Shown: in pieces, positions 10,291 to 56,295 of the stretch | Numbering within the stretch: position 1 is the first letter of the stretch | Layout of the letters: each line of letters opens with the position of its first letter | Origin: Thermoproteota archaeon | GTDB lineage: Archaea > Thermoproteota > Thermoprotei_A > Sulfolobales > Acidilobaceae | Assembly (NCBI GenBank): GCA_030549835.1 | Contig: JAUQQR010000003.1 | Span: 1-61,645 of the forward strand | Direction of reading: 5' to 3' | DNA length: 61,645 bases | The notes under the pieces: model-generated | Database searches by the model: none | What the model saw: the letters and a program-made list of their open reading frames with translations, nothing else | What the model was told of the DNA's origin: nothing | Made by a program: the position numbers and the translations under genes

Positions 10291-10484
10291 GTTTGTCCCT
10301 AGATGTTACATCTAGGGACTTCCACCTCGCCTACGTGGATTTAGGTATCCGCGTGGAGTCATGGATGGCTGTTGAGTCTAACGGCACGGGGGCTCTCATC
10401 TAGTTTTAGCTCTGAGAAGCTTGGAGCATTGCTCCTTATTGCTTCCGAGGCTCCTCCTAAGCTTATAAGCATTTCCTCGAAAAA
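10291..10484 (-). repeat. tnpB 3'-end relic with perfect terminal hairpin, family A copy 1
   Basis: The 412-base gap between nob1 and the next gene holds a relic. On the minus strand an open frame from 10484 to a TGA at 10361-10359 ends in DESPRAVRLNSHP, resembling the C-terminus of IS200/IS605-type TnpB proteins. Downstream, 10295-10319 is a perfect inverted repeat (GTCCCTAGATGT, one base, ACATCTAGGGAC), as at the right end of such elements. The same arrangement recurs diverged at 47763-47955. No transposase body, zinc-finger codons or left end remain. The rest of the gap (10485-10647) shows nothing clear. Confidence 0.6.
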
Positions 10485-10647
10485 TTAGGAAGAAAACAGA
10501 CCTCCACCTAGACTATTAATAATAGTAGGAGTACTTCTCTCCAACTTGTACTCATAGAATACGATAGAGACATGATGAGAGGCTATACTATCAAAATAAA
10601 GCATGAACATTTTAGTCTAGTATGAGATTATAAACCTAGGGGTCTGC

Positions 10648-19613: not shown

Positions 19614-19716
19614 GCCGGGGTGGCCGAGCGGTTAAGGCGGCGGGCTGCAGAGGATAAGAAATAGCCCATCGCAGAAACCCGTTAAAACCCGGGTTCAAAT
19701 CCCGGCCCCGGCTCCA
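19614..19716 (+). tRNA. tRNA-Cys(GCA) with 26-nt intron, CCA encoded
   Basis: The acceptor stem GCCGGGG/CCCCGGC, T arm CCGGG-TTCAAAT-CCCGG and U73 (the cysteine discriminator) are followed by encoded CCA. The anticodon stem GCGGG (19640-19644) pairs with CCCGT (19678-19682), but the loop is interrupted. The exon CTGC (19645-19648) can pair with GCAG (19671-19674) to form the central helix of a bulge-helix-bulge. The bulges AGA and AAA place the cuts after 19650 and 19676. This gives an intron at the canonical 37/38 site and anticodon GCA at 19647-19649. The length and extra bases could suggest a long-arm Leu/Ser tRNA, but splicing restores a class I shape. Confidence 0.88.
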
Positions 19717-37874: not shown

Positions 37875-38408
37875 CTAGCTTATCTCCTCTAAGCTGTAGC
37901 CTAGCTTCCTAGTAGCGTGGAGTGCTGTAGCGAATAAAGCATCAGACAATCTATTTAATACTTTTATTAAGAGACTATCTACTTCAAATCCAGATTCTCT
38001 CAGATTTACTAATTTCCTCTCAGCCCTCCTTACTAGGGTTCTAGCTACATGTAATGCTGCTACTCCAGGCGGCCCCCCAGGTAATATGAATTTTCTTAGA
38101 GGCTCACTATAGTATTTATCACATATGTCCTCTAGAATCTTAACATCATCCTCAGACACCTTTAGCTCTCTCCCCGTTATACTAAATCCTACTCTGAATA
38201 GTAGACTCTGAGCATATCTTAACTCATTATCATACTCTTTAGTCAATTGATCTAGTAAACTCCTCGCTAAGCCTATCATCGAGTTCGCTTCATCTAATGC
38301 CCCATAGAACTCTATTAGTGGATGACTCTTAGGAACCTTCTCACCCAGCCTAGCATATGTATACCCATTATCCCCACTTCTAGTATACAGCTTACCCACG
38401 ATTAACAT
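37875..38408 (-). CDS. Cob(I)alamin adenosyltransferase, PduO type
   Basis: Transfers adenosine from ATP to reduced cobalamin to give adenosylcobalamin. The N-terminus KLYTRSGDNGYTYARLG is the ATP loop, FYGALDEANSMIGLAR follows, and RTLVRRAERKLVNLRE is the C-terminal helix signature with paired arginines. 177 residues, four-helix bundle. About 65 bases after the oxidase cluster end in the same direction; functionally unrelated to it as far as I can see. Confidence 0.93.
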   Translation of the reverse strand: MLIVGKLYTRSGDNGYTYARLGEKVPKSHPLIEFYGALDEANSMIGLARSLLDQLTKEYDNELRYAQSLLFRVGFSITGRELKVSEDDVKILEDICDKYYSEPLRKFILPGGPPGVAALHVARTLVRRAERKLVNLRESGFEVDSLLIKVLNRLSDALFATALHATRKLGYSLEEIS

Positions 38409-38475: not shown

Positions 38476-40086
38476 TTATGGAGTAAGTGGTGGTACTGGG
38501 CTTAACCCCCTAGCTATGTATAACTCGTATAGTGCACCAGAGTATGCTATTATAACTATTACTACTGCTACTATTACTAATATAGATATTCTATCCAGTA
38601 TTGTCGCCTTTCCAGGGCTATGAGGATTCATCATTACGACTGCGGGCTGTGCTAGTGTTATCCTAGACCCTGATGCTAGTGATCCGAAGAATTGTACGAG
38701 GAATATGAGTCCGCCCGTAGCAAATATGAACGCACCTATAGCTGCTATCTGCATTGGAACTACCCACTCTTTAGGCATTAGGCCTGCAAAGGTTACATCA
38801 CTAGTTTTCCTAGGGCTTCCATATAGTCCTGCTATGTAGTAACCTATACTGAATAATGTCATACCTATAAACCATTGTGTTGGTACTGTTAGTGATAAAC
38901 TCTCTAGTATTAACTTTCTACCATATAAATCTCTTAGTAGCACGTAAGTGTAGGCCATGAATGATAAAGCTACAGCTGTCCCTACAGTGGTGTGGATGTG
39001 TCCTACAATCCATGCTGTATTATGGACAACATTGTTGAGCTGGTAACTTCCATTAATAATCCACGATATGCCACCACTACCAAATGCTATGAGGGCTAAT
39101 ATTAGACCTGTAAATGCTGGATCACGCCAAGGTAGCTTAAGTAGCCATCCTAGAAGCCCTCCGCCACCCCTAGCTCTACCAGCTCTCTCAAGTGTAGCTA
39201 TTATATTAAATGCTGTTAGCATACTTGGAGTAGCTACTACTAGAGTTAGAAGGGTCTGCAGATACTTAACGTATGGATTAATACCTGGATCAGTTAACTG
39301 GTGGTGCGTGCCTACAGGCGTTGAGGCTAATATAAAGATCGAGAATGATACCTTAGCCATAGTATCACTGAAGAGAGGTACACCTAGAGCCTTAGGCACA
39401 TAGTAGTACCATAGTGTTATAGCTGGTAATAGCCAGAAGTAGACTAAAGCATGACCAAACCATTAGAAGTAAAGTCTAGACTCTAAGACATCAGTATTAG
39501 AGCCTAAGACACTAGCTGGTATATGATTCTTTAGAACTATGAAAACTAGTGGTGTTGTAGCCATAATCCATACAATATAGGTTGCTAGCATACCGAAAAA
39601 TGGTAACGGTATAGCTGAGAGTAGGGCTGCGCCTAGGTAGAAGAGTGGGTGTGCTATAAGCGGTAGGTAGAATGTGTATAGTACATTAGCCCACCCAGCT
39701 AATATAGCTATAGCTGCTAAGATAGTACCAGTAACCATCACTATTAGGCTAATACTTAATAGTCTTGGTTTAATATTAACACCTATAACCCTAGGCGTTA
39801 GGTATGCCGATAATCCTACAATATAGAATGTTATTAGTACTATAGCAAGTAGTACTCCATGTGCTGTTAGTCCCCTATAGTATAGCTCATGTGGAAAGTT
39901 AGATAAGCCAATCCTAGCTAGAGGCTCATATAGGTTGGGAAAGTATGGCGTCCTACTAACGACCTGTAAAACTCCGAATATCCCGCCTAATAGTAGGGCT
40001 ACGAATGCTATAGCTATAGTAACCTTGGCATAGAAGTCTTCCCTAAAAGTATATACTTTACCTGACCCCACTAAAATCACCCCCAT
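38476..40086 (-). pseudogene. coxA: Heme-copper oxidase subunit I with one in-frame TAA
   Basis: Catalytic subunit of a terminal oxidase, closest in look to B-type (ba3/SoxB-like) enzymes. One frame runs from 40086 to 38476, broken only by TAA at 39465-39463 (codon 208). Before it: HGVLLAIV with a heme ligand. After it: WFGHALVYFWLLPA (CuB histidine and cross-linked tyrosine), THHQLTDPG (two CuB histidines) and HNTAWIVGHIHTTVGTA (both heme ligands). Thermus ba3 has FWW where this has F-stop-W, so the stop probably replaces an aromatic residue. There is no frameshift. All ligands are kept on both sides, so the loss is very recent or the stop is read through. Overlaps subunit II. Confidence 0.85.
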
Positions 40087-40582
40087 CTAGTAGTAAGCTA
40101 CTCCTCTCAATTAAGAGAGTCCCCCTCATTAAATGATGTCCCACACCACAGTACTCATGGCATATGAATAGGTAGTTACCCTTAGCATTCTTAGGAGGCT
40201 CCCACACAAACTCTGCAACATATCCCGGGAAAACCATTACATTAATACTAGTTCCTACTACGTGAATACCATGTATAACGTCTCGGGAGTATACTCTGAA
40301 CGTAACTCTAACAGGGTCTTTAAGCTTAATCTCCATAGGTATAAATACAAACTGTGCAGCTTTTATTGTAACCTCATATATACCCGGCCCGACCTCTCTA
40401 ACCCCAGGTGTTAGATCTATTCCTCTAGCCTTAGCCTCCTCTATAGTGTAAGCTTCACATGAAGGATTCAAATTTCTAATAAAGCCGTAATAAGCCATTG
40501 CTGCCGAGAATCCAGTAACAATTGCTACTATTATAAGCACCCATATATACTCATATACCATCTCTCCCCTATGGTACTCCAT
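40058..40582 (-). CDS. coxB: Cytochrome c oxidase subunit II
   Basis: Membrane-anchored electron entry subunit. One N-terminal helix (YIWVLIIVAIVTGFSAAMAYY) is followed by a cupredoxin domain with CuA ligands: histidine in VIHGIHVVGT and the cluster CHEYCGVGHHLM (two cysteines, histidine, methionine). A single helix fits the B-type oxidases. I chose ATG 40582; ATG 40618 is also in frame but lies inside the small gene before it. Intact, overlapping subunit I by 29 bases. Confidence 0.93.
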   Translation of the reverse strand: MEYHRGEMVYEYIWVLIIVAIVTGFSAAMAYYGFIRNLNPSCEAYTIEEAKARGIDLTPGVREVGPGIYEVTIKAAQFVFIPMEIKLKDPVRVTFRVYSRDVIHGIHVVGTSINVMVFPGYVAEFVWEPPKNAKGNYLFICHEYCGVGHHLMRGTLLIERSSLLLDGGDFSGVR

Positions 40583-40700
40583 AGAACCACCCTCCCCTAA
40601 TGAGGTGTAATAACACATAGATCCAAGCCAGCACTAAAAGCGCAGCCCACAATACTAGCAATAATAGAGTAGCTCTAGGAGGCTTAGACTCCGAAGACAA
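40569..40700 (-). CDS. Small membrane protein, probable oxidase subunit IIa
   Basis: A 43-residue frame from TTG 40700: a short polar start (SSESKPPRA), then one long hydrophobic helix (TLLLLVLWAALLVLAWIYVL), then a short tail. Subunit IIa of Thermus ba3 oxidase has the same design (polar EEKPKG start and a single helix) and the same place before subunit II. GGAGG lies 8 bases before the TTG. It starts 2 bases after the TAG of the cytochrome frame and overlaps the subunit II start. The IIa assignment is by design and position, not by clear homology. Confidence 0.65.
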   Translation of the reverse strand: MSSESKPPRATLLLLVLWAALLVLAWIYVLLHLIRGGWFYGVP

Positions 40701-40702
40701 GC

Positions 40703-41227
40703 CTAGCGCCTCCTCGTCAATAAGTAAGCTAATACAACTACTTATGCAACAATAATGGCAGCTATAATGGCAGCCAAACTGAAGGGAATCCCCCTAGCTT
40801 CAGCAGTCGGTGTTGGTTTAGGTGTTTTTTCAAATCCTAGAAGTGATGCTAGATACGATTTAACTATATTAACTCTAGGATCTCCAGGCTTACCTGATAG
40901 AGTTTACATTAGCGTAAATAACTCATCCCATGTTTTAGGATCGCCAAATCCCCTCTCTTTAACCACAGGTCCGATTTCTTTAACTACAAGTTCGTCAAGG
41001 CTAGCATACTTACCGGCATATACTTCCTTAAATTTTTTGACTATATCGCTCCAATCACTAGCTATACCACCACTTCTATGGCATACTATACAGCCTAAGC
41101 CCTCGAAAGCTCTCCTAGCCTCATCCTCAGTAGGTTAACTTAAGACTATTGATGAGAGTCCAGACACTAATAGTATTAGGAATAGAGATACTAATAATAT
41201 AATATATTATCTCGAATGATATATCAC
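40703..41227 (-). pseudogene. Membrane-anchored cytochrome c with four in-frame TAA codons
   Basis: A 175-codon frame from GTG 41227 to TAG 40703. It shows a signal helix (IILLVSLFLILLVSG), a heme c site GCIVCH at about codons 46-51, a distal part with MxTLSGKPGDPRV that may give the axial methionine, a Pro/Thr linker (KTPKPTPTAEA), and a C-terminal anchor ending in TRRR. TAA interrupts it at codons 7, 31, 108 and 162 (41209-41207, 41137-41135, 40906-40904, 40744-40742). There are no TAG, TGA or frame changes. Likely electron donor to the oxidase. A pseudogene by ordinary rules; the intact frame is odd for one with four lesions. Confidence 0.75.
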
Positions 41228-47608: not shown

Positions 47609-47762
47609 AAAGCCACCCCAGCATGATCACAGCTATTTATCTCTACTTACTCTAGCTTTCTATTCCCTCTAAGGATTATCAGATCTACTGCTTTAAAGTT
47701 TACCCTTCTATTCCTCCGTTTCCTCCATGATTTTTAATAAAGGCTTTATAGATATTCAATTT

Positions 47763-47955
47763 GTCTCCAGATATTTCATATCTAGGAACTTCCATCTAGC
47801 TCACATAGATATGTTTATCCATATGAATTCATGAATAGTTTTTAAATCCAACTGCACAGGGCTCCCATTTAGGCTTATCCTCTGGGAAGCTTGGATTACT
47901 GCTTCCCAGGCTTCTTCTAGAATATAGACACTTATAATGCCTATAAGCATTTCCT
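47763..47955 (-). repeat. tnpB 3'-end relic, family A copy 2
   Basis: The 436-base gap between the DUF2192 and DUF996 genes holds a diverged copy of 10291-10484. The minus strand reads EMLIGIISVYILEEAWEAVI and on to NGSPVQLDLKTIHEF, in the frame matching copy 1 (EEMLISLGG...DESPRAVRLNSHP). The terminal hairpin survives at 47763-47789 (GTCTCCAGATAT/ATATCTAGGAAC) with mostly paired or wobble positions, so the stem outlived its sequence. The rest of the gap shows only AT-rich spacer. Confidence 0.5.
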
Positions 47956-48044
47956 CAAAACATCAAGAGAAAACAACCTCTCGCTATTCTCTAGATCTCT
48001 AACATCCGGTGAGCTATATTATCATTTTTACTTTCATTTAATTT

Positions 48045-54114: not shown

Positions 54115-56295
54115 ATGAGTATATTAGAGCTTAAAGTAGCAGAGGCACACCCTACAGATGCTGGGAGGAAGATTGCTAGAGTTAGCTTTACAGCTATGTC
54201 AAAGTTAGGTGTTAGAAGTGGTGATTTCATCCAAGTTGAAGCCAATGGTAGGGTTGCTGTTGTCCGTGTCTGGCCCTTAAAAGGAGAAGATATAGATAAG
54301 AATATTATTAGGATTGATGGTTATCTAAGAGAAGCTTTAGGTATTAAGATTGGAGATGTTGTTAAGGTTAGTAGGGTTGATAGGATAGAGCCTGCAACTA
54401 GGGTGACTCTAGCTCCCGTAGAACATCCTATTAAGGTATCTAAAGATCTAATAGGTTATATTAAAGAAGAGTTAATTAATAAGCCCGTTAGCCGTGGCGA
54501 GCTTATAGTTATTCCAACGCTCTATGGCTATATTAACCTAGTTGTAGTCTCAACTCAGCCCTCACAAGTTGTATATGTATCTCAGGATACAGAGATTACT
54601 ATTAAGGAGTCTCCAGTTACTTTAGAGAGAGTTACTCCTAGAGGAGTTCCTCGAGTAACATGGGAGGATATTGGTGACTTAGAAGATGCTAAAGAGAGGA
54701 TTAGAGAAATAGTCGAGTTGCCTATGAGGCATCCCGAGCTCTTTAAACACTTAGGGATAGAGCCTCCTAAAGGAATACTATTATATGGGCCTCCAGGGAC
54801 GGGAAAGACGCTATTAGCTAAGGCTTTAGCTAACGAGATTGGAGCATACTTCATTACTATAAATGGCCCAGAGATTATGAGTAAATTCTATGGTGAAAGT
54901 GAGGAGAGGTTAAGACAGGTATTTAAGGAGGCGGAAGAGAACGCTCCGGCTATCATATTCATTGATGAGATTGACGCTATAGCGCCTAAAAGAGAAGAAG
55001 TTGTAGGTGAAGTTGAGAAGAGAGTAGTAGCTCAACTCTTAACATTAATGGATGGGCTTAAGGAAAGAGGAAAGGTCATAGTCATAGGAGCAACTAATAG
55101 ACCTGAAGCCTTAGACCCAGCACTTAGGAGGCCCGGGAGGTTTGATAGGGAAATAGAGATTAGACCTCCAGATAAGAATGCTAGAGCTGAGATACTAAGA
55201 GTACACACTAGATATATGCCCTTAGCAGAGGATGTTGATATAGATAAGATAGCTGAGATAACTCATGGATATACTGGTGCAGATATAGCTGCATTAGCTA
55301 AAGAAGCCGCTATGGCTGCTCTAAGAAGATTCATTAAATCTGGAGTCGTGGACTTATCTAAAGCTGAAGAGATCCCAGTAGATATACTTAGGAACCTGAA
55401 AGTTACATTAGCGGACTTTATGGAGGCTATGAAGTTCATTAGACCGTCACTTATGAGAGAAATTTATGTTGAAGTCCCAGAGGTTAGATGGAGTGATATT
55501 GGTGGTCTTGAAGATGTAAAGCATGAGTTGAGAGAGGCTGTAGAGTGGCCATTAAAATATCCAGGTCTCTTTGAGAAAATGGGTATAAGGCCTCCTAGGG
55601 GTATTCTACTCTATGGTCCTCCAGGGACTGGTAAGACTCTACTAGCTAAAGCTGTAGCTACTGAGAGTGGAGCAAACTTTATAGCAGTTAGAGGACCAGA
55701 GATTCTAAGTAAGTGGGTTGGAGAAAGTGAAAAAGCTATTAGGAAAATCTTCGAGAGAGCTAGGCAAGTTGCTCCAGCAATAGTATTCTTTGATGAGATA
55801 GACTCTATAGTCCCAGCTAGAGGCTACAGGTTTGACTCCTCAGGTGTAACTGATAGGATAGTGAATCAGATGCTTACAGAAATGGATGGAATACAGCCTC
55901 TAAAGAATGTTGTAGTAATCGGAGCATCTAATAGAGCTGAGCTCTTAGACCCAGCACTTCTAAGACCTGGGAGATTCGATAGAATAATCTACGTACCACC
56001 ACCAGATAGAAATGCTAGAAAAGAGATATTCAGGGTTCACCTTAGAAGAGTGCCAGTAGCGAGTGATGTAGATATAGATAAACTAGCTGAGCTAACAGAA
56101 GGATATACAGGTGCAGATATAGAAGCTATTGTTAGAGAAGCTGTTATGTTAAAGTTGAGAGATAAGCTTGAGCCAGGCCCAGTAGAAATGAAGTATTTCC
56201 TTAAAGCATTAGAGAAGGTTAGACCAAGTTTAACAAGTGAAGATGTAGAGAGATTTGAAAGAACATATAGAGAGCTTAAGAGAATGGTAGGATAA
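54115..56295 (+). CDS. cdc48: CDC48/VCP two-ring AAA+ ATPase
   Basis: Hexameric unfoldase for protein quality control. An N domain of about 180 residues precedes two AAA modules. Walker A GPPGTGKT lies at about residues 225-232 and 501-508, Walker [15 protein letters not shown] and [14 protein letters not shown], and second-region arginines [10 protein letters not shown] and [10 protein letters not shown]. 726 residues, full length; ends without the extra eukaryotic tail. ATG at 54115 after a TATA-like ATTATAAAC. Confidence 0.97.

Follow-up and report, generated by a model that had tools for sequence, protein, structure and literature searches.

The window, a stretch of 61,645 nucleotides, carries on its minus strand a respiratory cluster whose reading frames are conserved and nevertheless interrupted by in-frame TAA codons. 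Such stops raise the question of whether the cluster is damaged or whether TAA is somehow read as sense. The window belongs to the genome of an uncultured relative of Aeropyrum (G000; 1.42 Mb in 68 contigs, 96% complete), a metagenome assembly placed in the family of Aeropyrum. In transcription order, the cluster comprises the genes of a cytochrome c, subunit IIa, subunit II, and subunit I of a heme-copper oxidase (Table 1). Subunit I is followed by an intact gene which, from its sequence resemblance, would encode an ATP:cob(I)alamin adenosyltransferase.

Table 1. Positions of the oxidase cluster, its interruptions, and its downstream neighbour in the window
Feature	Position	Strand	Remarks
ATP:cob(I)alamin adenosyltransferase-like gene (presumed), intact	37875..38408	-	synteny marker and rate control
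Oxidase subunit I pseudogene, ba3-type (B-family)	38476..40086	-	536 codons including one internal TAA
In-frame TAA, subunit I	39463..39465	-	codon table and alignment of relatives
72-base deletion junction, subunit I	39619..39620	-	24 columns absent only from the window
Oxidase subunit II, open	40058..40582	-	CuA motif present; PF00116 at cut-off; 70% identity to G005
Probable subunit IIa, open	40569..40700	-	~43 residues, single transmembrane segment; translation and position
Membrane-anchored cytochrome c pseudogene	40703..41227	-	CIVCH intact; three certain TAAs, one doubtful at the start
TAA, cytochrome c	40742..40744	-	C-terminal membrane anchor; variable, mostly aliphatic column
TAA, cytochrome c	40904..40906	-	Ser/Ala column in relatives
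TAA, cytochrome c	41135..41137	-	Gln column in closest aligned relatives
TAA, cytochrome c	41207..41209	-	at or just before the signal peptide start; doubtful

Pfam analysis of subunit I reports a hit with PF00115 (E=2.4e-63). The protein also matches the Thermus ba3 structures (E~1e-83) and shares 72% identity with the intact 571/573-residue orthologues of two congeners, G003 and G005. The heme and CuB histidines and the His-Tyr pair of the COX1 domain are all there (HGV, FGHALVYFW, HHQ, and HIH motifs), so the earlier note was right that the heme and copper ligand motifs have been kept. It was equally right that the frame contains a single internal stop. This TAA lies four residues ahead of the CuB-ligand histidine of the FGH..VYFW motif, in a column occupied by Trp (TGG) in 13 out of 13 aligned relatives, and deriving it from TGG requires two substitutions. 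The view that indels are absent was wrong in substance, since it overlooked a clean in-frame gap of 72 bases in the subunit I DNA. Of 14 family members (the window and its 13 relatives), the window alone lacks the 24 consecutive residues concerned, which make up the greater part of transmembrane helix IV plus the loop leading to helix V (on Thermus ba3, a gap between residues 158 and 185, about 159-184). Subunit I is therefore neither uninterrupted nor in possession of every core helix. Moreover, the window exhibits six missense changes in ~120 otherwise invariant subunit I columns, compared with none in G003 and one in G005 (Fisher P=0.008), including GHFH to GHIH, which alters the residue between both histidines, and a G to W change. 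Changes at otherwise invariant positions, together with disabling lesions that are absent from the close orthologues (G005 is intact, as is subunit I of G003), are as expected of a pseudogene. A dN/dS analysis of the whole frame, in which synonymous sites approach saturation (proportions 0.61-0.80), returns a mildly long window branch, and control genes behave alike. Because subunit I shows no clear rate increase over these control genes, it can only have been inactivated very recently. The frames of subunits II and IIa are both open, as had been stated. A subunit IIa is described in B-type oxidases (PMC3128077). The window candidate sits between the cytochrome c and subunit II genes, and a Pfam search with it returned no match.

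In the cytochrome c frame, the four TAAs reported earlier are all found at their places, but only three are certain as breaks. The most upstream one lies directly 5' of where the alignment with relatives begins, is internal only if translation begins at the GTG at 41227, and has counterparts just upstream of the signal peptide in G005 and in a paralogue on contig C15 of G000, so that three stops rather than four count as certain. Of these, the first (41137-41135) falls on a conserved Gln within the QP motif that opens the mature domain. Cytochrome c displays 26 unique missense changes in the window versus 22 and 20 in congeners, a small excess for a frame with three or four nonsense codons, and its stop density is higher than that of subunit I (P~0.013 with four stops, 0.045 with three). 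Decay may have set in earlier in cytochrome c, helped by the C15 copy, or the imbalance may be due to chance. The C15 paralogue (L047:725-1165, minus strand) adjoins a CDP-archaeol synthase-like gene, is stop-free, and is 75% identical to the window gene over 299 bases of DNA.

The partner genes of the chain are also affected. The bc-type genes of G000, located on contig C26 (L076:5118-7530, minus strand), are broken too: the cytochrome b frame is interrupted by a TAG (L076:6392-6390) at a position occupied by Glu in G005, and the Rieske protein is missing the twin-arginine and anchor segment of its N-terminus. Next to both lies an intact, short heme A synthase-like gene (146 residues). A cytochrome bd, in contrast, is intact on contig C58 (542 and 375 residues). 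The earlier suggestion of a recent loss of aerobic respiration is supported for this oxidase branch, in view of the helix deletion, the changes at invariant sites, and the orthologues broken or missing in four of the five congeners, but not for aerobic respiration itself, since an intact cytochrome bd is encoded.

A literature search found no report on this genus, and comparison relies on five congeneric genomes (G001-G005). The whole chain is intact in one of them, G005 (oxidase, cytochrome c, Rieske, and cytochrome b), an uncultured Sulfolobales MAG and the only genome returned when genome contigs were scanned for closer orthologues; cytochrome bd was not found in this assembly, which is 86% complete. 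In G003, subunit I is intact, while subunit II is split by a frameshift around position 9019 of L022 (G003:C98), the Rieske gene contains a TAG, and cytochrome b contains a TGA before being cut off with loss of its 3' part. G002 retains of subunit I just the final ~160 codons (the last third), which border immediately on the upstream gene; no cytochrome c, IIa, or II gene was found at the locus of this remnant, and no bc-type Rieske in the genome. Finally, neither an oxidase nor a bc-type Rieske was found in G001 and G004, both of which possess the flanking adenosyltransferase gene; such absences are limited by the incompleteness of the assemblies, to a lesser degree where flanking genes were found. 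Among the six genomes, a bc-type Rieske thus occurs in G000, G003, and G005 only, and cytochrome bd is intact in G000-G004, that is, in every genome of the genus with the heme-copper branch broken or gone. Since the sister genomes are losing these genes by different routes and retain cytochrome bd, the stops are damage and not a hidden reading of TAA. The cluster is hence, with high confidence, a recently inactivated operon encoding a ba3-type heme-copper oxidase (subunits I, II, and IIa) and its cytochrome c. At the level of the genus, the best reading is that lineages possessing cytochrome bd have recently, and repeatedly, lost the bc/heme-copper oxidase branch. Cytochrome bd would have made this branch dispensable, selection on it would then have been relaxed, and lesions would have gathered independently in each lineage. 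Four points count against decay: the small missense excess in cytochrome c, a subunit I rate not clearly above that of the control genes, the chance of about 1-2% of encountering only TAA, and the fact that the sequence is a metagenome assembly.

A variant of decay, which we regard as unlikely, assumes that cytochrome c was lost first, its C15 copy having taken over, and subunit I later, with a partial complex perhaps keeping a role. The stop-free paralogue, the denser stops in cytochrome c, and the open frames of subunits II and IIa would all fit. However, the C15 copy has no in-frame ATG, GTG, or TTG start ahead of its conserved region, and its oxidase partner is broken anyway. As for a partial role, two short genes remaining open is expected by chance in recent decay (48% stop-free at 0.025 substitutions per site).

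It is far less probable that the lesions are assembly or consensus errors and that the living population harbours an intact operon. Although the genome was assembled from a metagenome into 68 contigs, such errors do not typically take the form of a clean 72-base in-frame deletion together with a number of isolated substitutions, the flanking genes are intact, and independent lesions are present on another contig and in the assemblies of other congeners.

Local readthrough, recoding, or RNA editing of TAA, yielding full-length subunit I and cytochrome c, had been put forward on the grounds that every stop is TAA. It is confirmed that no TAG, TGA, or frameshift occurs within the two window frames, which are otherwise well conserved; the pattern fails for the chain as a whole, in view of the TAG of cytochrome b. 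Alignment, proposed earlier as a check on the residue that each TAA replaces, reports an invariant Trp, a conserved Gln, a Ser/Ala, and a variable aliphatic position. The stops do not share one residue, and therefore no one rule of reassignment, suppression, or editing fits. TAA as Trp, considered from the invariant Trp of subunit I, is contradicted by the three cytochrome c columns, and A-to-I editing (UAA to UGG) would suit only the Trp site. ARAGORN analysis identifies no UAA-reading (UUA) anticodon among 44 tRNA loci found in G000 (genome 96% complete). TAA is still a normal terminator, as had been noted, ending 20 of the 43 window genes, and is the commonest terminal stop nearby. Furthermore, no reading of TAA can restore helix IV, and lesions in the chain partners of this genome or its sisters include TAG, TGA, frameshift, and truncation. 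From window codon use, TAA should make up 32-36% of new nonsense mutations, so that the probability of four TAAs out of four is 0.010-0.016 for the window alone, and that of at least five out of six is 0.015-0.024 when the doubtful stop and cytochrome b are included. This is a mild bias noticed post hoc, and the TAA-only pattern in the window is a coincidence of small numbers, to which A+T mutation pressure may have contributed (38% G+C). Readthrough, recoding, or editing across both genes is accordingly a most improbable explanation. That cytochrome c alone is still made through its TAAs, a reading that arises because its stops outnumber those predicted by the small missense excess, would call for context-specific TAA suppression inserting mixed residues in an archaeon and can scarcely be credited either.

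The recently inactivated operon resembles, in its subunit I and II sequences, short IIa gene, and ligand motifs, the ba3-type (B-family) oxidases with IIa of Thermus thermophilus and Aeropyrum pernix, from which it differs in lacking helix IV, in the premature stop of subunit I, and in the three or four stops of cytochrome c. Recent prokaryotic pseudogenes that follow functional replacement share with it the scattered stops, the deletion, and the changes at invariant sites, as well as an intact sister orthologue and several stages of loss across a genus. The restriction of the window stops to TAA, a mild chance bias, is the only departure from such pseudogenes. Stop reassignment or suppression, as in the ciliate-type TAA=Q or the archaeal TAG=pyrrolysine, likewise places in-frame stops within conserved frames. 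Unlike in these systems, the window stops have no residue in common and no cognate tRNA was found among the tRNA loci, TAA remains a normal terminator, and a helix is deleted.

Elsewhere in the window, a tRNA-Cys with an intron (19614-19713) is reported by Rfam, as well as by ARAGORN when introns are permitted, and is missed by the default tRNA scan. Two intergenic, non-coding stretches (10292-10504 and 47760-47980; ~225 bases, 69% alike) do not match any Rfam family and are possibly relics of a mobile element. A direct repeat of 243 bases (55072-55314 and 55906-56148, 73% alike) is an internal duplication within a single frame of 726 residues (54115-56295).

These results close the possible claim of recoding at this locus. 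They document instead how the bc/heme-copper branch has been lost repeatedly in a single archaeal genus, in which intact, damaged, remnant, and absent states are found side by side and could help in dating and ordering the steps of a respiratory switch.
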